Shown here piece by piece: positions 52,293 through 63,512 of a DNA stretch of 64,000 nt. The stretch is from positions 62,001 through 126,000 of the forward strand of contig NZ_ATWL01000006.1 in the NCBI RefSeq assembly GCF_000421225.1, given 5' to 3'. The stretch is from Ruania albidiflava DSM 18029 (GTDB lineage: Bacteria > Actinomycetota > Actinomycetes > Actinomycetales > Beutenbergiaceae). Under the pieces are notes generated by a model. It saw only the letters and a list, made by a program, of their open reading frames with translations. It made no database searches and was not told where the DNA came from. Each line of letters starts with the position of its first letter. The first letter of the stretch is position 1. Position numbers and translations under genes: made by a program.

Positions 52293-53365
52293 CGCTGCGC
52301 ATGATGTGGCCGCTGTGGCTGCTGCTGCCGGTCTTCCTGCCGCTGCTGGCGCTGACCGTGTGGAAGGTCCGCAGCTCGCACGGTGAGCGACGGTGGGACT
52401 GGATCCGGCGCACCGCGATCGTGGTGTGCCTGCTGATCATCGGTCTCACCCCGGCGATCCCGCGCACCAGCCAGGACGCACTGATCTCCAACGTGGAGAT
52501 GTTCTTCGTGGTGGACCGCACCGGGTCCATGGCCGCTGAGGACTACAACGGCGACCAGGCGCGGCTGGTGGGGGTGCGAGACGACCTGATCGCGCTCACC
52601 GAGGCGATGCCCGCCGCCCGGTACACGATCATCGGGTTCGACTCCCAGGCCACCCAGCAGCTGCCGATGACCACGGACTCGCGCGCGGTGCAGACCTGGG
52701 CGGAGACGGTCACGCAGGAGATCACCAACTACTCGGCGGGCTCGACGATCGACCGGCCGCTGGAGGAGCTGACCCAGTCGCTGACCTCCGCCGAGGAGCG
52801 CAACCCGGGCAACGTCCGGCTGGTGTTCCTCTTCACCGACGGGGAGAACACCGACGGCTCCGCCTCGGACGCCGGTGGCGACTTCAGCTCCTTCGCCGAG
52901 CTGGAACCGTTGGTCGATGGCGGAGCGGTGCTCGGCTACGGCACGGCCGACGGCGGCAACATGCGCTCCTACGACGGCACCTCGGGCACCGGCTTCGGCA
53001 CCGATGCGCCGTACATCACCGACGACACCGGCCAGCCGGCGGTCTCCCGGATCGACGAGGACAACCTCCGGACCGTGGCCAACCAGCTCGGCGTGGACTA
53101 CGTGCACCGCATCGAACCGGGCCCGGTCGATGACCTGGTGGCAGACGTGGACATCGGCCAGATCACCGCCGACGGCCGCCGTGATGTGACCAGCTACGAG
53201 GACGTCTACTGGCCGGTTGCGATACTGCTGGCGCTGCTGCTGGCCTGGGAGGCGTGGGACCTCACCCGCGAGGTGCCCAGGTCCGGGCGGAAGCGCGGCA
53301 CGGACGAGACGTCACGGCAGCCCGCACGGGAGAAGGACCTGGTCTCTGGAGGGAGTAGGCGATGA
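52289..53365 (+). CDS. VWA-domain membrane protein (BatB-like)
   Basis: A 358-residue second VWA protein; MIDAS appears as VVDRTGSMAAEDY with SGSTID-like loop (SAGSTIDRPLEELTQSL) and FTDGENTDG. Helices flank the domain at both ends (LWLLLPVFLPLLALTVW; VAILLALLLAWEAW). It overlaps the previous gene by ATGA and is coupled to the TPR gene the same way. Confidence 0.88.
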   Translation: MTLRMMWPLWLLLPVFLPLLALTVWKVRSSHGERRWDWIRRTAIVVCLLIIGLTPAIPRTSQDALISNVEMFFVVDRTGSMAAEDYNGDQARLVGVRDDLIALTEAMPAARYTIIGFDSQATQQLPMTTDSRAVQTWAETVTQEITNYSAGSTIDRPLEELTQSLTSAEERNPGNVRLVFLFTDGENTDGSASDAGGDFSSFAELEPLVDGGAVLGYGTADGGNMRSYDGTSGTGFGTDAPYITDDTGQPAVSRIDEDNLRTVANQLGVDYVHRIEPGPVDDLVADVDIGQITADGRRDVTSYEDVYWPVAILLALLLAWEAWDLTREVPRSGRKRGTDETSRQPAREKDLVSGGSRR

Positions 53366-54270
53366 GCGTCGACCTGTTGCCCCCGCCGGGGGAGTTCCGC
53401 ACCACCCAGGAGATCCGGGACGCGAAGCTCGCGGAGAAGCTGGCGCGGCGGCGAAAGCTGATGCTGCTCTGGTCGGCACCGGTGGTGTTGGTGGTGTTCC
53501 TCGCTGCGGCCAAGCTGCTCAGTGCTGTGCTGCTGAACCTGGCGGGCACCAGCGCCTACGAGAAGCAGAACTATGTCACGGCCACGGACCGGTTCGCCTC
53601 ACTAGCGTTCTTCAACGTGGTGGAGCCGTGGAAGGCGCCGTTCAACGAGGGCACCGCGGTCTACGCCACCGGCGACTTCTTCACTGCCAAGGAGCACCTG
53701 GACGTGGCTCTCGGTCTGGTGCCGACGGCCCCTGAGGGTGAACCGCGCGGGGAGGAGGAGTGCATGGTGCGTACCAACTACTCGCTCTCCCTCGAGGGGC
53801 TCGGCGACGAGGCGATGATCGCCTCCGACTTCGCGATGGCGACCGACTACTACGAGCAGGCGCAGACGATGCTCGCCGACTGCGGTGAGTCCGGTGGCAA
53901 CGGTGGCGAGCAGGCTGAACAGGCCGAGGAGCGCCAGCAGCAGAGCCAGGAGGAGTCCCAGCAGCAGCAGGAACAGCAAGAGCAGCAGCAGGGCGACGGT
54001 GAGGGCGAGGAGGAGAACGAGTCTCCTTCCGAGGATGAGTCCGGCGGCGAGGAGAGCCAGTCCCCCTCGGAGGGCGAGTCCGGCGGCGAGGAGAGCCAGT
54101 CCCCCTCGGAGGGCGAGTCCGGCGGCGAGCAGAGCCAGTCCCCCTCCCCCGGCGAGTCCACCGATCCGCGGCAGGATGAGCTGGAGGAGCGCAACCAGGA
54201 GGCACAGGAGTCGCGCGAGGCGGAGGAGCAGCAGTCCGGCGGCGGGGACGGCTCCGGGCAGAACTGGTAG
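53362..54270 (+). CDS. TPR-containing membrane protein with acidic repetitive tail (BatC-like)
   Basis: A 302-residue protein: cytosolic N-terminus, one helix (LLWSAPVVLVVFLAAAKLL), a TPR-like region (AYEKQNYVTATDRFASLAFF; ATGDFFTAKEHLDVALGL; DFAMATDYYEQAQTML), then a 120-residue Glu/Gln/Ser/Gly-rich tail built partly of 13-residue repeats ESGGEESQSPSEG. The tail should be disordered and strongly negative outside the cell. Last gene of the MoxR operon. Confidence 0.8.
   Translation: MSVDLLPPPGEFRTTQEIRDAKLAEKLARRRKLMLLWSAPVVLVVFLAAAKLLSAVLLNLAGTSAYEKQNYVTATDRFASLAFFNVVEPWKAPFNEGTAVYATGDFFTAKEHLDVALGLVPTAPEGEPRGEEECMVRTNYSLSLEGLGDEAMIASDFAMATDYYEQAQTMLADCGESGGNGGEQAEQAEERQQQSQEESQQQQEQQEQQQGDGEGEEENESPSEDESGGEESQSPSEGESGGEESQSPSEGESGGEQSQSPSPGESTDPRQDELEERNQEAQESREAEEQQSGGGDGSGQNW
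54022..54159 (+). repeat. 39-bp tandem coding repeat, 3.5 units
   Basis: Units start at 54022, 54061, 54100 and (partial) 54139, encoding a 13-residue Ser/Gly/Glu-rich block. Units 2 and 3 differ by one base; unit 1 is more diverged. Prone to slippage, so copy number probably varies between strains. Confidence 0.8.
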
Positions 54271-54294: not shown

Positions 54295-55290
54295 GTGACT
54301 CCTCGAGCATCGGCGGGGGCCTCCCGGCCCCGCGACCGGCGCACGATCGATCGCCGGACGATGATGCTGGTCAGCAAGGCGTTCTACATCGATGGGCTGT
54401 CCAAGGTGCAGATCGCCGCGGAGATGGGGATCTCCCGGTTTCGCGTGGCTCGCGCGCTGGCTGCCGCCCGGGACGTGGGCATCGTCTCGATCACGTTGAA
54501 CAGTGGTGCGCCGATGCCTGAGCTGTCCGAACGCGTCCGAGCGCACCTGCGCCTCCGGGACGCGCACGTAGTCGAGGTCTATGGCGATCTGGACAGCCTG
54601 CGGACGGCGGTAGGGCGGGCCACGGGCGCCCGCTTGTCCGAGGTCCTCCGCGACGGCGAGTCGCTGGGCATCGGGTGGGGGCGCACCCTCGACTCGATGA
54701 TGGATGGGGTCGAGCACCTGCCGGAAGTCGAGGTGATCCAGCTCTCTGGACGGTTCGAAGCCGACCGGCGCAATGCCGCTGCGGAGCTCACCCGCCGGGC
54801 CGTCGCCCTCACCGGCGGCGCGTTCCATGCGATCCCGGCCCCGTTCTTCGTCGACGATGCGCGGGTAGTCAACGCGCTGCGGCGCCATCCAGAGGTGGCA
54901 GCAGTGGTTGCGGGCTTTGACCAGATCAGTACAGCAGTCGTCTCGGTCGGGACGGTATGGCCGCAACCGATCACAATCGCCTTCTCATCGATGCCACGTC
55001 GGTTCACCGAGAGCCTGCTGGACTCTGGAGCGGTCGGGGAGATCTGCGGCAACCTGTTCTCCCGGGAGGGATACACAGTGGAGTCCCCGCTGTGGCGACA
55101 CCTGCTGACCATCACACCGGACCAGATGCGCGGGATCGAGCGCGTGATCGGTGCAGCCGTGCATCCGGTCAAGGCGGAGGCAGTGCGGGCGGTGTGCCAA
55201 GCGGCGGTCATCAACGAGCTGGTGCTGGACGTCGAGCTCGCCCATACGCTGCTCAGGCTCCCGGAGGTCACGAGCACCCTGGCCGACTGA
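54295..55290 (+). CDS. SorC-family sugar-binding transcriptional regulator
   Basis: A 331-residue regulator. N-terminal HTH (VSKAFYIDGLSKVQIAAEMG, ISRFRVARALAAARDVGIV), then the sugar-phosphate-binding Rossmann-like effector domain (GESLGIGWGRTLDSMM; EVEVIQLSGRF). SorC proteins typically bind phosphorylated metabolites, fitting control of the importer and glycerol-1-phosphate dehydrogenase genes downstream. GTG start; the operator candidates follow the gene. Confidence 0.88.
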   Translation: MTPRASAGASRPRDRRTIDRRTMMLVSKAFYIDGLSKVQIAAEMGISRFRVARALAAARDVGIVSITLNSGAPMPELSERVRAHLRLRDAHVVEVYGDLDSLRTAVGRATGARLSEVLRDGESLGIGWGRTLDSMMDGVEHLPEVEVIQLSGRFEADRRNAAAELTRRAVALTGGAFHAIPAPFFVDDARVVNALRRHPEVAAVVAGFDQISTAVVSVGTVWPQPITIAFSSMPRRFTESLLDSGAVGEICGNLFSREGYTVESPLWRHLLTITPDQMRGIERVIGAAVHPVKAEAVRAVCQAAVINELVLDVELAHTLLRLPEVTSTLAD

Positions 55291-55301
55291 CGGCGACTGC
55301 G

Positions 55302-55353
55302 AGCGTTACCAAAGCGTTATCGCTCAAATGAGCGATCTAGTTGGTCGACCAAC
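55302..55353. promoter_or_regulatory. Operator cluster before ABC genes
   Basis: Three elements in 52 bases: direct repeat AGCGTTA at 55302-55308 and 55313-55319 (11-base period); ATCGCTCA-AA-TGAGCGAT perfect inverted repeat at 55319-55336; GTTGGTCGACCAAC perfect 14-bp palindrome at 55340-55353. They sit about 140 bases before the ABC ATPase start, the expected place for SorC control. Confidence 0.6.
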
Positions 55354-55492
55354 CGGACGGCCTCAGCACTCGTCCTACTCTCGGGTCGCACCACCCCTGC
55401 AAGGGCGCATCCACGATGCCTGGTCGCTGCGACCGGCTGGGTCCAGGGCGTCGGCGCAGCCTGTCCCGCCAGAGTTCTACGGAGCAACGATC

Positions 55493-56605
55493 TTGAGCGT
55501 TTCGATCACCATCACCGATGCCGTCAAGCGATACGGCGACACCACCGTCATCTCGGACTTGTCGGTGCAGATCGGCAGTGGCGAGTTCTTCACCCTGCTC
55601 GGCCCATCAGGCTGCGGGAAGACGACTCTGCTGCGGATGATCGCCGGCTTCAACACGGTGGAGGCAGGGGACATCCACTTCAACGAGAAGCGCATCAATG
55701 ATGTCGAACCTTCCAAGCGGCGCATCGGGATGGTATTCCAGAACTACGCAATCTTCCCGCACCTGAGTGTGCGCAAGAACGTGGAGTTCGGGCTGCGCAA
55801 CATGGACTTCCCACGCAAGGAGGTGCGGGACAAGGCGCAGGAGTTCATCGAGCTGGTGCAGATCGGCCGGTGGGCCGACCAGATGCCGGACCGACTCTCT
55901 GGCGGACAGCAACAGCGGGTGGCGCTCGCCCGAGCGCTGGTCACCTCACCGGACGTGCTGCTCATGGACGAACCGCTGTCCAACTTGGACGCGAAGCTCC
56001 GGGTGGAGATGCGCGAGGTCATCCGTGAGATCCAGAAACGAGTCGGCATCACCACGGTCTACGTCACCCACGATCAGGAGGAGGCGATGGCCGTCTCCGA
56101 CCGGATCGCCGTGATGAAGGACGGGGTGATCCAACAGCTCGGTACGCCACGAGAGCTCTACCATCGCCCGGCCAACATGTTCGTCTCCAGCTTCATCGGC
56201 CGCACGAACACTCTGGACGGCCAGCTCACCGTACGCGACGGCCAGACCCACCTGGTGGTCGCCGATGCCGACCTGGTGATCCCCGACCTGCCCTCTGCAG
56301 CGGATGCCGTCGGGCCGGTCAAGGTGGCCGTGCGCCCCGAGGAGTTCGTCCTGGACACTGCGGCCACCACCGGGATCCCGGCGGTCGTCGACCATGGCGT
56401 CTTTCTCGGTGTGAACACGCACTACTTCCTCACGCTCGCCGACGGCACCGCGATCGAGGCGATCCAGGAGTCCGAGTTCGACGAGGCGCTCGAGCCCGGA
56501 GCCACCGTGTTCCTGGACGTCAAACGACACAAGGTGAACATCTTCGACAGCGCCGGCGAGCACAACCTGCGCACCCGTGCCGCAGCCGAGGTGGTCGGCT
56601 CATGA
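55493..56605 (+). CDS. ABC transporter ATPase, Fe3+/organophosphate/spermidine type
   Basis: A 370-residue ATPase: Walker A GPSGCGKTT, Q-loop MVFQNYAIFPHLSV, signature LSGGQQQRVALA, Walker B VLLMDEP, H-loop VTHDQEEAM, and a C-terminal TOBE-like domain. The most consistent start is TTG at 55493 with GGAG nine bases upstream, since homologues begin just before SITITDAVKRYG; longer frames add unrelated residues. Closest to FbpC/AfuC/PhnT-like energisers by general pattern. First gene of the transport operon. Confidence 0.9.
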   Translation: MSVSITITDAVKRYGDTTVISDLSVQIGSGEFFTLLGPSGCGKTTLLRMIAGFNTVEAGDIHFNEKRINDVEPSKRRIGMVFQNYAIFPHLSVRKNVEFGLRNMDFPRKEVRDKAQEFIELVQIGRWADQMPDRLSGGQQQRVALARALVTSPDVLLMDEPLSNLDAKLRVEMREVIREIQKRVGITTVYVTHDQEEAMAVSDRIAVMKDGVIQQLGTPRELYHRPANMFVSSFIGRTNTLDGQLTVRDGQTHLVVADADLVIPDLPSAADAVGPVKVAVRPEEFVLDTAATTGIPAVVDHGVFLGVNTHYFLTLADGTAIEAIQESEFDEALEPGATVFLDVKRHKVNIFDSAGEHNLRTRAAAEVVGS

Positions 56606-58293
56606 CGACGATCATGACCACTCCCGGGGCCCAGACCCGGCGGGGCAGGTTCTTCAAGCTGGACATGTGGACGGCCACGTCGCTCGGACTGCTCCTGCTG
56701 TTTGGACTCTTCCTGCTGTACCCGTTGTTCGGAGTGCTCAAGGAGTCGGTGCTCGACGGCGAGGGCGGGTTCACCTTCGCCAACTTCGCAAAGTTCTTCG
56801 CCAACGACTACTACTTCGGCACCATCCGGAACAGCTTCATGGTGAGCCTCGCGGTCACGGTCGTCTCGCTGGTCATCGGCGTGCCGTTCTCGTACTTCTA
56901 CACGTTCTTCAAGCTTCGCGGGGCCAAGTTCCTCTTCGTCGGTGCGGTGCTGTCCTGCATGTCGGCACCGTTCATCGGTGCCTACGCCTGGATCCTGCTA
57001 CTCGGCCGGAACGGGATCGCGACTCGCCTCCTCGAGGCCGTGCTTCCCTTCAGCATCGGCAGCATCTACGGCTTCGGTGGAATTGTCCTGGTGCTCAGCC
57101 TCAAGCTGTTTCCCCTGGTGTCGGTGTACATGAACGCCGCCTTCCGGAGCGTGGACATCTCGCTCCTGGAAGCCGCCTCCCTGATGGGCAGCACGGGGCT
57201 GCGGCGCATCTGGCAGGTGATGATCCGGCTCACCGTGCCCACACTGCTGGCCGCCTCCCTGCTGGTGTTCATGCGCGCCTTCGCGGACTTCGGAACACCC
57301 ATGCTGATCGGCGAGGGCTACCGCACGTTCACGGTCGAGATCTACAACCAGTACCTCGGTGAGATCGGGCAGAACCACAACTTTGCGGCGGCGATCGGCA
57401 TCGTCGGCGTGGTGGTCACCGCCGCGGTGTTCCTGCTGCAGAAGTTTGCGGCGAACAAGTTCAGCTTCTCGTTGAAGGCCGGCAGCCCGGTGCAGAAGCG
57501 GCGCCCACGCGGTATCGGTGGCGCACTGGTCTACCTGTACATGTACGCACTCATCGGCCTGGCGCTGCTGCCGCAGCTGTACATCGTGTACCTGTCCTTC
57601 CGGAACAACAACCAGGTCGTGTTCCTGCCCGGCTACTCGCTGGACAACTACCGGCAAGCGATGAGCCGTCTGCTCGGCCGGTCGGTGTACAACACGATCT
57701 TCTTCGCCGTCGTAGCGCTGGTGATCATCATCGCCGTCTCCGTCCTGCTGGCCTACCTGGTGGTCCGGCGCAGCAACGCGGTGAACAACTTCCTGGACAC
57801 GGTCTCGATGCTGCCCTACATCATGCCGGGAGCAGTGATCGGCATCGGCCTGGTGATCGCGTTCAACTCTCCCCCGCTGGCCCTGACCGGGACGATGACG
57901 GTGATGATCATCATGCTGGTGATCCGACGGATGCCCTACACCATCCGGTCGGCCACCGCCACGTTGATGCACCTGCCGATGTCGATGGAGGAGGCGGCAC
58001 GCAGCCTGGGTGCCTCGAAGCTCAAGGCTTTCTGGCGGATCACTGTGCCGATGATGTCCGCCGGTGTGGCCTCGGGCGCAGTGCTGAGCTTCGTGGCGAT
58101 CGTCACCGAGATGTCCGCGGGGATCATCCTCTACAACAACCAGACCATCACGCTGACCATGTCCGCCTACGTCGCCATCACCCGCGGCAGCTACGGGCTG
58201 GCCTGTGCGTTCTCCGCGATCCTCACCGTGCTCACCGCTGTGCTGCTGGCTGTGTACCTGAAGTTCACCAAGGAGGAGGACGTCAAGATGTGA
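56602..58293 (+). CDS. Fused ABC permease, FbpB/AfuB type
   Basis: 563 residues with about twelve helices, a duplicated permease as in Fe3+ and sugar-phosphate importers. Two ATPase-contact loops: LLEAASLMGSTGLRRIWQV and MEEAARSLGASKLKAFWRI. ATG overlaps the ATPase stop (ATGA). Forms the whole membrane channel alone. Confidence 0.92.
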   Translation: MTTIMTTPGAQTRRGRFFKLDMWTATSLGLLLLFGLFLLYPLFGVLKESVLDGEGGFTFANFAKFFANDYYFGTIRNSFMVSLAVTVVSLVIGVPFSYFYTFFKLRGAKFLFVGAVLSCMSAPFIGAYAWILLLGRNGIATRLLEAVLPFSIGSIYGFGGIVLVLSLKLFPLVSVYMNAAFRSVDISLLEAASLMGSTGLRRIWQVMIRLTVPTLLAASLLVFMRAFADFGTPMLIGEGYRTFTVEIYNQYLGEIGQNHNFAAAIGIVGVVVTAAVFLLQKFAANKFSFSLKAGSPVQKRRPRGIGGALVYLYMYALIGLALLPQLYIVYLSFRNNNQVVFLPGYSLDNYRQAMSRLLGRSVYNTIFFAVVALVIIIAVSVLLAYLVVRRSNAVNNFLDTVSMLPYIMPGAVIGIGLVIAFNSPPLALTGTMTVMIIMLVIRRMPYTIRSATATLMHLPMSMEEAARSLGASKLKAFWRITVPMMSAGVASGAVLSFVAIVTEMSAGIILYNNQTITLTMSAYVAITRGSYGLACAFSAILTVLTAVLLAVYLKFTKEEDVKM

Positions 58294-58388
58294 CGCCGCC
58301 TCCCCCTCCCCCAGGACCGCCGTCCCCCGGTCCAGCGACCCCATCCCCCGGACACGACCACAACCCTGACGACGAGGAGTACCCACAC

Positions 58389-59432
58389 ATGAGACGCAGC
58401 AAGACCCTGGCCGCTGGCGGCGTGCTGGTGGCCGCAGCGCTCGCCCTCGCTGCCTGCAACGGCGGCGGCGGTGGCGGCAACGACGAGAACCATCTCGTCC
58501 TCTACTCGAGCATGACCGACAACGACCTGAACGTCTTCACCGACATCGTCACCGCTGAGTTCCCGGACATCGACATCGAGATCGTCAACGGCTCTGCCGG
58601 TGAGCTCACCACCCGGATCCAGTCCGAGTCCGGCAACCCGCAGGGCGACATGATGTGGGGCGGTCTGGACACTGCGGACGGAGACCGCTACTCCGACATC
58701 TTCGAGCACTGGCTGTCCGACTACGAGGACAACCTTCTGCCGGAGTACCGCTCGCCGAACGGGTTCTACAACGTCGACCACCTGTCCACAGTGGCGTTCG
58801 CCGTCAACACGGACATCGAAGAAGAGCTCGGCATCGAGATCAACGGGTACGAGGACCTCCTCGACCCGCAGCTCAACGGCCGGATCGCGATGGCCGACCC
58901 GACCTCGTCGTCCTCCGCCTGGAACAACATCAGCAACATCATGGCGGTGTACGGCTATGACTCCGAGGAGTCCTGGGACTACATCGAAGCGCTCCTCGAC
59001 AACGGTCTGGTGATCGCATCCTCGTCCTCCATCCCGTTCGCGAGCACCGAGGACGGTGAGTACGCCGTTGGCCTCACCTACGAGGACGGCATCGCCGCGC
59101 TGCTGAAGTCCGGCGCCTCCCACATCCGGCTGGTCTACCCCGAGGAGGGCACCAGCGCCTCGGCGTTCGCCACAGCGGTCATCGCCGACGCACCCAACGG
59201 CGACCTCGCCAAGGACGTCATCAACTACCTGATGAGCCCTGAGGGCCAGATCGCGTTCGCCGAGGCGAACGGCACGGTCCGGATGACCACGAGCGCGGAC
59301 TACACGCTGGAGTTCCTGCCTGCGCACGACGAGATCACCTGGGTGGACCGGGACATCGAGTGGCTCACCGAGAACCGGTCCGACGTGGTGGAGCAGTGGA
59401 CCGAGCTGTATACCAGCGTCCAGGGCTCCTGA
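58389..59432 (+). CDS. ABC substrate-binding lipoprotein, FbpA/AfuA type
   Basis: A 347-residue lipoprotein: signal peptide with lipobox LAAC at residues 19-22, Gly-rich linker, then the ferric-type binding-protein fold starting LVLYSSMTDNDLNVF, with GDMMWGGLDTADGD and FAVNTDIEEELG. Relatives bind iron, hexose phosphates (AfuA) or 2-aminoethylphosphonate (PhnS). The usual paired tyrosines of iron binders are not evident at the C-terminus, which favours an organic ligand; weak evidence by eye. Followed by a hairpin terminator. Confidence 0.88.
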   Translation: MRRSKTLAAGGVLVAAALALAACNGGGGGGNDENHLVLYSSMTDNDLNVFTDIVTAEFPDIDIEIVNGSAGELTTRIQSESGNPQGDMMWGGLDTADGDRYSDIFEHWLSDYEDNLLPEYRSPNGFYNVDHLSTVAFAVNTDIEEELGIEINGYEDLLDPQLNGRIAMADPTSSSSAWNNISNIMAVYGYDSEESWDYIEALLDNGLVIASSSSIPFASTEDGEYAVGLTYEDGIAALLKSGASHIRLVYPEEGTSASAFATAVIADAPNGDLAKDVINYLMSPEGQIAFAEANGTVRMTTSADYTLEFLPAHDEITWVDRDIEWLTENRSDVVEQWTELYTSVQGS

Positions 59433-59440
59433 GCCCCGTT

Positions 59441-59484
59441 TCCCGGTGGGCTGCTCCCGCACTGTGCACAGCAGCCCACCGGGA
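59441..59484 (+). terminator. Hairpin after the binding-protein gene
   Basis: Perfect 15-bp stem TCCCGGTGGGCTGCT (59441-59455) with its complement at 59470-59484, 14-base loop, no U-tract. Begins nine bases after the TGA. May attenuate readthrough into the secreted-protein gene and protect transporter mRNA. Confidence 0.7.
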
Positions 59485-59671
59485 GCACCAGAGCTGGCCG
59501 ACGTAGTCCGGCCGAACCGGGGGGACCGGTCTCGCCGAGCAGCGAGGCGGTGCCGCCATGCCTGAAACAGGTCGAGCCTGCCCGTGAGCGAAGGCGCTGC
59601 GACCTCCACCGAACGCCGCAACCGTGCCGGTGCGCCCGCACCGGTCGGCGGAGGAGAGAAGGAGAACACAG

Positions 59672-62041
59672 GTGAGTACCAGAACGATCAGAGGCACAGC
59701 CCGAGGGGTGATCGCGGGCACGCTGGGCGCCGCTCTGGCCACCACCGGCCTGGCGATCAGCGCCGGGCCCGCGGCGGCCACACCCGAGGAGGACACCTCG
59801 ACCGCCACGGGCGCAGCACCGGCGGACGCGTCCGACTTCGAGGAGACGGTGCTGCTGGAGGAGGACTTCTCCAGCGGCGCACTGCCTGAGGACTGGCTGC
59901 CGGTGGTCGGTGACTGGGAGGTCGTCGACGGTCAGCTGCGCTCCACCAGCGGTGATGAGGCAGCCCGCATCGGCTTCGGCCCGCAGGCACCGGAGAACTT
60001 CCGGGTGGAAGTCAGCGCCGAGTTCGTCGAGGTGGAGAATCCAGCTCGTTGGCTCAGCGTCGGTCTGGACTACCACGCCGAGGAGCACTGGGGGGCTTGG
60101 GTAGGGTTGCGCAGCCAGACCTCTGCGGACAACGGTGTGGAGTTCGTGCAGCGTCCGCAGAGCGGGTCGAACGCGCTGAGCGCCTACCCAGGTCCGTTCG
60201 ACATGGGCACCGGCCAGGCGCACGACCTGGTCTTCGAGGTGCACGGATCGTCGCTGGTGGCCAGCATCGACGGCGAGGAGATGCTGCGGACCGATGAGCT
60301 GCGCCGCACTGACGGCAGCTTCGGCTTCCGCTACAGCAGGTCGACCGTCGCCTTCGACGATGTCCGGATCACCGAGATCGCCCCGCAGGCCAGCGCACCG
60401 AGCGCTCCGCAGAACGTGCACCTGACCGAGGAGGCCGACGCGGCCACCATCACCTGGGACGCTCCTGCGGACCCGGGCATCGATGACCAGGGCCAGCCGG
60501 CGACGATCACCGGCTACGAAGTTGCCGCTGCCCCTGCGGGCACACCGAGCGACGAGCTGGTCTGGGGACCGGCCGCCGCGGAGAGCAGCCACACCTTCAC
60601 CGACCTGCCCGGCGATGCCGAGCAGATGCTGCAGGTCCGGGCGACGAACAGCATCGGGCTGACCGGCGAGCAGGCTGCCGTGGTGACGATGCGGGGCGCG
60701 GAGACTGTCGGCGGGTACAAGCTCCAGCTGCAGAGCGGCCCGTGGCCGACCTCCCACGTCCAGGGCATCGCAGTGGACGAGGAGAACGGCTTCGTCTACT
60801 ACTCGTTCACCACCCTGCTGGTGAAGACAGATCTGGCCGGGAACATCATCGGGACGGTCGGTGGTTTTACCGGGCACCTGGGCGACCTCGACTTCAACGC
60901 TGAGGACGGCCGCTTGTACGGCTCCTTGGAGTACAAGGACGCAGAAGCGTTCTACATCGCGATCTTCGACGTGGACGAGATCGACGAGGTCGGCATGGAT
61001 GCCCAGAACTCCCCGATCGTCTCGACTGTGTACCTCGAAGAGGTGGTCGAGGACTACACCGCCGACATGGACGGCGACGGGGTCTTCGACGGTGACACTG
61101 GCGACACTGCCGATCACCGGTACGGAAGCTCTGGTATCGACGGTGTCGGGTTCGGCCCTGCATTCGGTGAGGTGGACGGGCCGCAGCTCCTGACCGTGGC
61201 CTACGGCATCTACTCCAACACCGAGCGGACCGACAACGATCACCAGGTCCTGCTGCAGTACGACATCAGCGACTGGACGGGGCTGGAGCGCCCGCTGGCC
61301 GAGTCCGACCCGCACCACAGCGGCCCGGACGCAGTCGACGGCAAGTACTTCGTGTTCACCGGCAACACCACCTACGGTGTGCAGAACCTCGAGTTCGACC
61401 CGTGGCTGGACCGGTGGTTCATGGGCGTGTACGTGGGCAAGAAGGACCAGTATCCGAACTACGAGCTGTTCGCAGTCGATGCCGAGTCGACGCCGAGCCT
61501 GGAGACGCTCACCGGTCTGGACGGTGAGCAGGGGCTGCTCCTGCCGCTGGCGGAGGACGGTCTGCTCGACGAGGCCACCGGAATCCGTGGCTGGTACGAG
61601 ACCGCCTCGGTCGGTATCCAGTCGCTCGGTGACGGGCTGTACTACCTCAGTACGCAGACGAACGACGGCGGCCAGGGCTCGATCCTGACGCTGGAGACGT
61701 GGACCGGACATGCCGACGACCCGTTCGTGCCGGTGACGGCGGACTTCGACCCGGTCTCCCGCTGGGACGGTGCGGCCACCTACACCGCCGGGGACACCGT
61801 GGCGCACGCGCGATCGATCTGGCAGGCGTCCTGGTGGACCCGGGGCCAGGAGCCCGGCGACCCCTACGGGCCGTGGCAGGAGATCGTCACCACCTCGGAC
61901 GGGACCGCAGTGTGGACTCCTTCGCGGATCTTCGATGCCGGTGACGTGGTGAGCCACGACGGCACCCGGTACGAGGCGCAGTGGTGGACCCGCAACCAGG
62001 AGCCGGGCGCCGCGCACGGTCCCTGGCGTGCGATCGACTGA
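59672..62041 (+). CDS. Secreted multi-domain protein with two CBM5/12-type chitin-binding modules
   Basis: 789 residues. Signal peptide to about residue 34 (GVIAGTLGAALATTGLAI, cleavage near AAA-TPEE). Next a concanavalin-like domain (EDFSSGALPEDWLPVVGDWE; residues ~55-230), a fibronectin type III module (~235-345), then a 350-residue propeller-like region (SHVQGIAVDEENGFVYYSFT; NLEFDPWLDRWFMGVYVG). The C-terminus has two CBM5/12-type modules (YTAGDTVAHARSIWQASWWT; FDAGDVVSHDGTRYEAQWWT). No catalytic motif recognised. GTG with AAGGAG seven bases upstream. Probably binds or processes a polymer whose products the adjacent importer takes up. Confidence 0.8.
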   Translation: MSTRTIRGTARGVIAGTLGAALATTGLAISAGPAAATPEEDTSTATGAAPADASDFEETVLLEEDFSSGALPEDWLPVVGDWEVVDGQLRSTSGDEAARIGFGPQAPENFRVEVSAEFVEVENPARWLSVGLDYHAEEHWGAWVGLRSQTSADNGVEFVQRPQSGSNALSAYPGPFDMGTGQAHDLVFEVHGSSLVASIDGEEMLRTDELRRTDGSFGFRYSRSTVAFDDVRITEIAPQASAPSAPQNVHLTEEADAATITWDAPADPGIDDQGQPATITGYEVAAAPAGTPSDELVWGPAAAESSHTFTDLPGDAEQMLQVRATNSIGLTGEQAAVVTMRGAETVGGYKLQLQSGPWPTSHVQGIAVDEENGFVYYSFTTLLVKTDLAGNIIGTVGGFTGHLGDLDFNAEDGRLYGSLEYKDAEAFYIAIFDVDEIDEVGMDAQNSPIVSTVYLEEVVEDYTADMDGDGVFDGDTGDTADHRYGSSGIDGVGFGPAFGEVDGPQLLTVAYGIYSNTERTDNDHQVLLQYDISDWTGLERPLAESDPHHSGPDAVDGKYFVFTGNTTYGVQNLEFDPWLDRWFMGVYVGKKDQYPNYELFAVDAESTPSLETLTGLDGEQGLLLPLAEDGLLDEATGIRGWYETASVGIQSLGDGLYYLSTQTNDGGQGSILTLETWTGHADDPFVPVTADFDPVSRWDGAATYTAGDTVAHARSIWQASWWTRGQEPGDPYGPWQEIVTTSDGTAVWTPSRIFDAGDVVSHDGTRYEAQWWTRNQEPGAAHGPWRAID

Positions 62042-62050
62042 CCAGCCCAC

Positions 62051-62088
62051 GGTGCTGGGTCCCCGACAGCGGCCGGGGACCCAGCACC
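62051..62088 (+). terminator. Hairpin after secreted-protein gene
   Basis: GGTGCTGGGTCCCC (62051-62064) pairs perfectly with GGGGACCCAGCACC (62075-62088) across a 10-base loop, ten bases after the TGA. Reduces but may not block transcription into the dehydrogenase gene. Confidence 0.75.
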
Positions 62089-62141
62089 TCTGACCAGCCA
62101 GCCGCACCCAGCTGACGACGCGCTCTGAAGGACACCTATCG

Positions 62142-63512
62142 ATGTCTGCCCTGCTCGACCACGCCCTGACCACCGCCGACGAGACCAGGGCGATCGCTCT
62201 CGGTCCGGGTGCCGTGCACCGCACCGGAAGCATGTTCGCCGACCTGTTCCCCGGCCAACCAGCGCTGGTCGTCGCAGACGAGAACACCTTCGCCGTCGCC
62301 GGCGCAGCGGTCCTCGCCTCGCTCGAGCAAGCCGGTGTACCGCTGGCGGACGAACCGTTCATCTTCCCGGGAAGCCCCACGCTCTATGCCGACTACCCGA
62401 ACGTGCAGGTGGTGCGGGAGCAGCTCGCGACACTGCCTGCAGCGGTGGCATGCTCGATTGCCTCCGGAACGCTCAACGACATCACCAAGCTGGCCTCCGG
62501 TGAGCTGGACCGGCCGTACCTGAACGTGTGCACAGCCGCCTCCGTGGATGGATACAGCGCATTCGGCGCCGCGATCACCGTCGATGGTTTCAAGATCACC
62601 CGCACCTGCCCGGCCCCTGCCGGGCTCGTGGCCGACCTGGACCACCTGGTCGCCGCACCGGCGCGGCTGACCGCCACCGGCTACGGCGATCTGCTGGAGA
62701 AGATCCCGGCGGGTGCGGACTGGTTGCTCGCCGACGCTCTGGGGGTCGAACCTGTGCACGAGGTCGCCTGGCAGCTGATCCAGCCGACCGTACGGGACGT
62801 GCTGGACCGGCCCGAGCAGATCGCAGCCGCCGAGCCGGAGGCGATCGAACAGATGGCGGAGTGCCACTTCCTCTCCGGTCTGGCGATGCAAGCGACCAAG
62901 TCCTCCCGGCCCGCATCCGGCGCCGGCCACCAGTTCTCGCACACGTGGGAGATGGAGGGGCACGGGCTGGACTGGGAACCACCGCTCTCGCACGGGTTCA
63001 AGGTGGGCATCGGTACGGTCGCATCGTGCGCCCTGTGGGAAGAGGCACTCGCGATGGACGTCGCCGCCCTCGATGCGGAGACGATCGTCGCTGACGCGCC
63101 GAGTGCCGAACAGGTGGAGGCCGCGGTACGAGCCACGCTGCCGGCGGCGATGGCCGACGAATGCGTGGCGCTCACCCTGGCCAAACGAGCGGAGGGCGAT
63201 GCCCTGCGTGCCCGGGTCGCACGGATCCAGGAGGTCTGGCCGTCCCTGCGGGAGCGGTGCCGCGAGCAGCTGGTCTCCGCCCGTGGGGCCGCGACCATGC
63301 TGCAGCGGGCCGGCGCCCCGCACCATCCGGAGCAGATTGGCATCGGCATGGACCACTTCCGCCGAACCCATCTGGCAGCGCAGCGGATCCGCAGCCGCTA
63401 CACCGTGCTCGATCTGCTCGCGGACCTGGGGATGCTCGAGGCGGTGGTCGACCGACTGTTCGCTCCGAGCGGGTTCTGGGGTCGACGCCCTTCGCCGGAC
63501 ACAGGCAGCTGA
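62142..63512 (+). CDS. sn-Glycerol-1-phosphate dehydrogenase (AraM/EgsA family)
   Basis: A 456-residue iron-alcohol-dehydrogenase-fold enzyme interconverting DHAP and sn-glycerol-1-phosphate with NAD(P)(H). Family features: SIASGTLNDITKLASG, VCTAASVDGYSAFGAAI, metal-ligand histidines in GHQFSHTWEMEGHG and LSHGFKVGIGT. Longer than archaeal EgsA, as bacterial AraM-like forms are. GAAGGAC precedes the ATG. Clustered with an organophosphate-type importer it may oxidise imported glycerol-1-phosphate to DHAP. Direction in vivo is inferred. Confidence 0.88.
   Translation: MSALLDHALTTADETRAIALGPGAVHRTGSMFADLFPGQPALVVADENTFAVAGAAVLASLEQAGVPLADEPFIFPGSPTLYADYPNVQVVREQLATLPAAVACSIASGTLNDITKLASGELDRPYLNVCTAASVDGYSAFGAAITVDGFKITRTCPAPAGLVADLDHLVAAPARLTATGYGDLLEKIPAGADWLLADALGVEPVHEVAWQLIQPTVRDVLDRPEQIAAAEPEAIEQMAECHFLSGLAMQATKSSRPASGAGHQFSHTWEMEGHGLDWEPPLSHGFKVGIGTVASCALWEEALAMDVAALDAETIVADAPSAEQVEAAVRATLPAAMADECVALTLAKRAEGDALRARVARIQEVWPSLRERCREQLVSARGAATMLQRAGAPHHPEQIGIGMDHFRRTHLAAQRIRSRYTVLDLLADLGMLEAVVDRLFAPSGFWGRRPSPDTGS

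Follow-up and report, generated by a model that had tools for sequence, protein, structure and literature searches.

The 64-kb stretch of the Ruania albidiflava DSM 18029 genome analysed here (hereafter the window; positions 62001-126000 of contig 6, in a genome that comprises 4.17 Mb in 60 contigs) carries towards its end six consecutive genes on the plus strand, which encode a SorC regulator, the ATPase, fused permease and binding protein of an ATP-binding cassette (ABC) importer, a secreted protein and a dehydrogenase (Table 1). All six are of the types named in an earlier reading made from the sequence alone. The best reading of this locus is the import and oxidation of glycerol phosphate, the sn-1 enantiomer included, and we give it even chances of being right. 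Glycerol phosphate is the most economical substrate, larger polyol phosphates being possible. The sequence-only reading had proposed a regulated importer and dehydrogenase for a phosphorylated polyol, supplied by archaeal lipids or a glycerol-phosphate polymer. The first part is upheld by dehydrogenase relatives lying near glycerol-phosphate-type importers, glycerophosphodiesterase (GDPD), GlpD and HAD-IIA genes, and the archaeal source is not supported.

In the proposed route, the SorC protein would bind a palindrome at position 55319 and respond to a phosphorylated intermediate. The secreted protein, which contains a beta-propeller and would be anchored by its CBM5/12 modules to a polymer of the N-acetylglucosamine (GlcNAc) type, could act on or gather a phosphate-containing surface substrate. 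The ABC importer would take up the intact phosphate ester, as the family of its binding protein suggests, and the dehydrogenase, judging from its enzyme family, would convert sn-glycerol-1-phosphate (G1P) into dihydroxyacetone phosphate (DHAP), leading to glycolysis. Since the substrate would arrive phosphorylated, no FGGY kinase would be needed, unlike at 30 of the 43 dehydrogenase loci described below. The likeliest natural sources would be the head groups of bacterial phosphatidylglycerol (PG) and poly-sn-glycerol-1-phosphate teichoic acids, rather than archaeal lipids. The binding of the regulator, the ligand, the direction of the reaction and the role of the secreted protein are what we infer in this scheme.

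The dehydrogenase belongs to the Fe-ADH_2 family (85.5 bits for a Pfam cut-off of 28) and its nearest solved structure is the glycerol-1-phosphate dehydrogenase (G1PDH) 9h4x, with an E-value of 3.1e-39. An alignment of 47 sequences shows residues D136, H263, H267 and H284 to be kept in at least 95% of them, and D136, H267 and H284 align with Asp/His residues of 9h4x, at positions that we take to be the metal ligands of G1PDH. The dehydrogenase could instead be biosynthetic and make G1P for an unusual lipid or polymer, like AraM in Bacillus. In B. subtilis, the product of AraM goes into an ether lipid (PMC4244643), and a Streptomyces araM lies together with teichoic-acid transport genes in a syntenic region (PMC13118837). 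We consider this role very unlikely for the window: the matches of the class search, own genome and genome G311 aside, are 26–35% identical, no prenyltransferase or polymerase is found by Pfam among the six genes, and the presence of a regulator and an importer suggests catabolism. The next closest relative of the dehydrogenase (L028:7696-9099, 67% identical) forms one clade with the window and Actinotalea caeni copies; its context differs, with adjoining genes that look by eye PqqC/TENA-like and ketoacyl-synthase-like.

All three importer proteins miss the NCBIfam equivalog cut-offs of the aminoethylphosphonate transporter PhnSTU2: the ATPase is nearest to PhnT2 (360 bits, cut-off 458) and the permease to PhnU2 (184 bits, cut-off 593), and the binding protein scores 140 bits against PhnS2 (cut-off 393). 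The nearest solved structure of the binding protein is AfuA (4r72, E 2.9e-25), and other near solved relatives are an iron-annotated protein, 6lki/6lkg, which we take to be HptA, and the pyridoxal-phosphate binder P5PA. Phosphonate-bd PF12974, a family carried by the binding protein GpxB considered below, is not among its Pfam families at an E-value of 0.001. Pocket residues named in PMC4546632 and PMC8427247 were then mapped onto the binding protein. On the phosphate side of AfuA, five of the eight aligned residues are kept (G38, G59, S148, S184 and, as serine, T150), S37 is changed into alanine, G149 and G185 into serine, and T60 falls in a gap. On the sugar side none of five is kept, Y103, H205, D206, E229 and Q269 being replaced by H, D, G, S and G. 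A phosphate side that is partly kept together with a replaced sugar side speaks for a ligand that is phosphorylated but is not a cyclic hexose phosphate; glycerol phosphate itself is not identified as the ligand by this alignment of pocket residues. The positions aligned with AfuA H205/D206, where the paired tyrosine ligands of FbpA are presumably located, are D235/G236 in the binding protein (alignment to AfuA). An iron-transport reading of the importer is disfavoured rather than rejected.

The regulator has the Sugar-bind effector domain that defines SorC proteins (148 bits, Pfam cut-off 27). Its best NCBIfam model is DeoR (118.6 bits, under the cut-off of 420), and its true start may be further in, near an ATG pair at about 54361. 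Between sorC and the ATPase gene, the perfect palindrome ATCGCTCA-NN-TGAGCGAT stands at a similar position in the window and in A. caeni. When up to two mismatches were allowed genome-wide, it was found exactly at one place per genome in both species, with one additional two-mismatch place in R. albidiflava, and the reversed control pattern gave no match in either genome. With three mismatches allowed, the palindrome is single in the 64-kb window, and 19 of 100 shuffles gave at least one match (0.20 expected). One exact place per genome makes the regulator look local, and the palindrome is a probable SorC operator.

Gene content and order can be read directly in A. caeni as well, where the same genes follow each other in the same order with 66–88% identity. 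The run of genes is not due to chance, as A. caeni keeps both its order and the palindrome behind sorC. A. caeni has in addition a HAD-IIA phosphatase gene (L027:9060-9914), which follows the gene of the secreted protein and precedes that of the dehydrogenase. At this site the window has just 100 bases, so that the gene was either lost here or gained in A. caeni. The exact gene set is rare. A comparably close binding protein was found in 2 of 24 genomes of the family (E ≤1e-40), 1 of 394 genomes of the class (1e-45) and 1 of 346 genomes of the phylum (1e-35), own genome counted, the class and phylum searches being confined to the 5 or 6 top candidates of each genome. Homologues of the dehydrogenase occur in 20 of 59 genomes, own included, two of them weak. 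Twenty regions were fetched around such homologues (two from the own genome, some shortened by contig ends): the dehydrogenase is present in 19 and the full set in one, that of A. caeni, and 4 of the other 18 have Ugp-like and/or GDPD genes. A protein scan of genome contigs with the dehydrogenase gave no relative, and the named genome loci stem from the propeller scan described below and from plasmid records. The sequence-only reading had made its case depend on conservation of the gene set and on linkage of the dehydrogenase to the transporter in relatives. The set is kept in A. caeni and in no other of the 20 fetched regions, and the dehydrogenase is unlinked from this importer elsewhere, some relatives having Ugp-like links.

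Neighbourhood associations were counted in 43 dehydrogenase loci, which comprise 19 of the fetched regions, 20 further ones (one from the class search), two Rubrobacter plasmid regions and two loci of metagenome-assembled genomes (MAGs); the window itself is outside this set and several loci are short contigs. The 88 control loci carry the propeller, with A. caeni and the two MAGs left out and with L078 and L109 representing the same place. As counts of matches of at least 80 bits that are not independent events, since the test loci supplied many of the queries, include many close relatives and differ from the controls in taxonomy, HAD-IIA was found in 32/43 dehydrogenase loci versus 0/88 controls, FGGY kinase in 30/43 versus 5/88, RpiB in 26/43 versus 0/88, GlpD in 13/43 versus 0/88, SorC and DhaK in 7/43 each versus 0/88, GDPD in 4/43 versus 0/88, UgpA-like genes in 4/43 versus 3/88, UgpE-like genes in 4/43 versus 4/88, and UgpB-like (3/43) and GlpT-like (2/43) genes in no control. 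Adjacency is looser than these locus counts imply: a copy lies within 500 bp of the dehydrogenase in 16 of 32 loci for HAD-IIA, 18 of 30 for FGGY and 7 of 26 for RpiB, and a copy is on its strand in 31/32, 28/30 and 23/26, respectively. On a Rubrobacter indicoceani plasmid (L170:9986-16165), two genes are annotated as sn-glycerol-1-phosphate dehydrogenase, and dihydroxyacetone kinase, HAD-IIA, RpiB and several FGGY kinase genes are nearby.

Two neighbourhoods hold genes of the glycerol-phosphate type. The own genome holds a second dehydrogenase copy (L026, G000:C4:283000-299498), 56% identical and on the plus strand with RpiB and HAD-IIA genes; UgpA/E/B-like genes and genes for a glycerophosphodiesterase, an FGGY kinase and GlpD are on the minus strand of this region. 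The same Ugp-like set and GDPD recur in the dehydrogenase loci L037 and L038. All Ugp, GDPD and GlpD scores listed are under curated cut-offs. In the two MAGs (L102 and L105, Verrucomicrobia/Verrucomicrobiota), the order is GlpD, HAD-IIA, a major facilitator superfamily (MFS) transporter, dehydrogenase and SorC; divergent from this run are a TonB receptor and, after it, the propeller (L102:10001-11038). The MAG dehydrogenase and SorC proteins are 43% and 30% identical to those of the window. The MFS transporter is of the organophosphate type (PgtP 359, UhpC 343 and GlpT 328 bits, all under cut-off), GlpD reaches 341 bits for a cut-off of 360, and HAD-IIA passes its model (121 bits, cut-off 100). 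The MAG case thus joins the regulator, the dehydrogenase and the propeller with a different glycerol-phosphate-type transporter.

Several observations weigh against import and oxidation of glycerol phosphate. The dehydrogenase scores 150.9 bits against the NCBIfam G1PDH model PRK00843, far under the curated cut-off of 413, so that its name, also in the sequence-only reading, is an attribution by subfamily. The full gene set was seen in two species only, and the two MAGs, 94–99% alike in these proteins, represent one event. The Ugp-like, GDPD, GlpD and FGGY genes around the paralogue lie on the strand opposite to the dehydrogenase, and among the 43 loci GlpD and GDPD lie within 500 bp in 1/13 and 1/4 cases and on the same strand in 6/13 and 1/4. 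Strong hairpins 3' of the binding-protein gene (RNAfold of 59430-59500, -39.6 kcal/mol) and of the secreted-protein gene (-36.1 kcal/mol, 15-bp stem), both without shuffle control and both with counterparts after the same genes in A. caeni, suggest that expression may be stepped, and they may separate the transcription of parts of the operon. An importer of Fusobacterium vincentii, found in the plasmid-record search with an ATPase 60% and a permease 51% identical to those of the window, has no dehydrogenase, SorC or propeller gene within its 18.9-kb stretch, and an importer without these partners weakens what can be deduced from the importer itself. Finally, pentulose-type FGGY kinases and RpiB are close to many relatives of the dehydrogenase, a sign of polyols larger than glycerol.

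Two other explanations draw on these points. The importer could carry an unrelated ligand (2-aminoethylphosphonate, another phosphonate, a polyamine or similar) with the dehydrogenase as an accidental neighbour, in agreement with the best matches of its three proteins to PhnT2, PhnU2 and PhnS2 and with the lone Fusobacterium relative. We judge this unlikely, as all three Phn scores are far under the curated cut-offs, no phosphonate-degrading gene is found by Pfam or NCBIfam among the six genes, and dehydrogenase and importer stay together in A. caeni behind the same palindrome. The second explanation keeps importer and dehydrogenase together for the phosphate of a larger polyol (a tetritol or pentitol), which would be oxidised to a tetrulose or pentulose phosphate and not to DHAP. 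Besides the frequency of FGGY kinases and RpiB given above, ribulokinase models are the best match of the FGGY kinases scanned from L026, L029 and L033, with three of the four below cut-off, and RpiB relatives reach 149 and 147 bits against the D-erythrulose-4-phosphate isomerase model (cut-off 240). However, the same proteins exceed the cut-off of 168 bits of the ribose-5-phosphate isomerase model, with 191 and 181 bits, and neither FGGY nor RpiB occurs in the window with the 19 kb after it, in the A. caeni stretch or in those of the two MAGs. The Ugp-, GDPD-, GlpD- and GlpT-like partners indicate glycerol, although under curated cut-offs. A larger polyol phosphate appears to us a rather improbable substrate, if a credible one. 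The window with the 19 kb after it also holds no HAD-IIA, GlpD, GDPD, GlpT-like, PhoD or such TonB receptor gene at 60 bits or more.

The secreted protein contains CBM_5_12 in two stretches (52.7 bits, Pfam cut-off 26.2) and one fn3 domain, and its N-terminal part weakly resembles 3keto-disac_hyd (E 0.0075, under the Pfam cut-off). Its middle 345 residues (about 345–690, window 60704-61738) form a core to which no Pfam family corresponds up to an E-value of 10. An AlphaFold2 model of this core built with 40 sequences is beta-rich with a mean pLDDT of 95.5; fold searches with the model gave generic propellers (query TM 0.30–0.42 among the 50 Protein Data Bank (PDB) matches listed), and a profile search of PDB sequences gave nothing relevant. 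Known beta-propeller enzyme families, such as beta-propeller phytase, have no Pfam match to the core up to that E-value and no specific fold match among those 50. The core is confidently modelled as an unnamed, strongly conserved beta-propeller family, in which an acidic loop of the DMDGDGxFDG type is present.

A scan with the propeller gave 251 relatives, of which 80 were kept; in all, 93 propeller loci (80 + 11 + 2) with at least one overlapping pair were examined. The family is present in records of Actinomycetota, Pseudomonadota and Verrucomicrobiota, and TonB receptor and PhoD genes adjoin it in most of the Gram-negative loci examined. A TonB receptor occurs in 26 of the 93 loci and a PhoD relative in 24, all 24 with the receptor. 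In Sphingobium, for example, genes for an ECF sigma factor, FecR, a receptor-type protein, alkaline phosphatase D and the propeller follow each other, and in Corynebacterium occultum a metallophosphoesterase comes after the propeller. The association with PhoD and TonB receptors is clear in Gram-negatives. In the actinobacterial propeller loci whose neighbours were inspected, no recurrent phosphate-ester gene was recognised, which counts against a general rule linking the propeller to phosphate esters. Dehydrogenase and SorC genes accompany the propeller in three of the 93 loci, those of A. caeni and the two MAGs. We advance as a speculation, which we ourselves hold doubtful, that the propeller would be a new enzyme family freeing G1P or racemic glycerol phosphate from phosphodiesters of the PG or lipoteichoic acid (LTA) type that GlpQ cannot cut. 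Its partner would be PhoD in Pseudomonadota and, in Actinomycetota and Verrucomicrobiota, a G1P dehydrogenase of catabolic function. If true, this would represent a widespread, undescribed way to recycle from bacterial envelopes the "wrong" enantiomer of glycerol phosphate. In the same scan, a contig labelled Vibrio cholerae (L140, WNZI01000006.1) has propeller-flanking gene clusters in common with the Arthrobacter loci L111, L121 and L125, and its label or assembly is probably wrong.

The salvage of G1P from archaeal ether lipids, one of two sources that the sequence-only reading had named, is highly improbable. No ether-lipid-cleaving gene was recognised among the six genes by Pfam or NCBIfam, and CBM5/12 modules point to GlcNAc polymers. 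Archaeal recycling is nevertheless the stated motive of the work on GpxB and UgpB in marine bacteria (PMC12718374). Bacterial envelopes hold the same enantiomer, LTA being built from G1P units and PG keeping the Gro1P entity (PMC7086022), so that the archaeal scenario is unneeded and the description of G1P as rare in bacteria is misleading. GlpQ leaves intact LTA uncut (PMC7086022). As to uptake, G1P supports growth of marine Phaeobacter, where GpxB and UgpB import it with little discrimination between enantiomers, and by the paper's own account these G1P importers were the first described, in December 2025 (PMC12718374). In the portion of that text available, no enzyme is named for the fate of G1P after uptake, and AraM is absent. 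Uptake of G1P is therefore already known and the present system is not categorically new; our literature searches turned up no paper on this operon.

Table 1. Features at the end of the window (positions in the 64-kb stretch)
Feature	Position	Strand	Remarks
SorC/DeoR-type regulator, 331 aa	54295..55290	+	Pfam Sugar-bind; 66% identical copy in A. caeni
Probable SorC operator palindrome	55319..55336		ATCGCTCA-NN-TGAGCGAT, common to A. caeni
ABC importer ATPase, TTG start	55493..56605	+	ABC_tran, TOBE_2
Fused double permease, 563 aa	56602..58293	+	BPD_transp_1, two stretches
Lipoprotein-type binding protein, AfuA/PhnS2-like	58383..59432	+	SBP_bac_8, SBP_bac_6; lipobox by eye
Strong hairpin 3' of the binding-protein gene	59438..59487	+	RNAfold
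Secreted protein	59672..62041	+	Start resembling a signal peptide by eye, N-terminal domain, fn3, propeller core, two CBM5/12
Perfect hairpin between secreted-protein and dehydrogenase genes	62051..62088	+	RNAfold
G1PDH-like Fe-ADH_2 dehydrogenase, 456 aa	62142..63512	+	Fe-ADH_2; nearest structure 9h4x

The TTG start of the ATPase gene was assigned from the sequence by comparison with A. caeni. After the dehydrogenase gene comes a convergent 2-oxoacid dehydrogenase E2 gene, on the minus strand from 63562. Upstream of sorC, the gene at 53362-54270 encodes a protein whose tail is of low complexity and repeats ESGGEESQSPSEG-type units, has no Pfam match and closes a run of genes that look VWA-like by eye. 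Weak UgpA/E-like matches at 17–19 kb of the window belong to a different ABC importer.

Compared with AraM/EgsA, the dehydrogenase of the window has in common the Fe-ADH_2 family, the putative metal-ligand residues and the nearest solved structures; it differs by its length of 456 residues, its score below the equivalog cut-off and relatives linked to catabolic genes, some of them to importers. The hexose-phosphate importer AfuABC (PMC4546632) provides the nearest solved relative of the binding protein, with five of eight aligned phosphate-side residues in common, whereas the sugar-side residues are all replaced in the window and its permease and ATPase score best as PhnU2 and PhnT2. The Ugp system with its glycerophosphodiesterase UgpQ has the function proposed here, but the binding protein of the window is not Ugp-like (29.6% identity over 54 residues, E 0.029). 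The PhoD/TonB-receptor clusters of Pseudomonadota share the propeller core with the secreted protein and are without the dehydrogenase or such an ABC importer. Like the system proposed here, GpxB and UgpB achieve the ABC import of G1P as a carbon source (PMC12718374). They are binding proteins of the PhnD family and of CUT1, respectively, whereas that of the window is AfuA/PhnS2-like, and the available portion of PMC12718374 describes no linked G1PDH, SorC or secreted propeller. The system of the window would thus be a third type of G1P importer, with its own dehydrogenase. As the locus brings this other type of importer together with a dehydrogenase and a regulator of its own, importer, enzyme and operator are directly testable, and the locus also points to an unnamed conserved propeller family beside phosphate-ester genes in records of three phyla.

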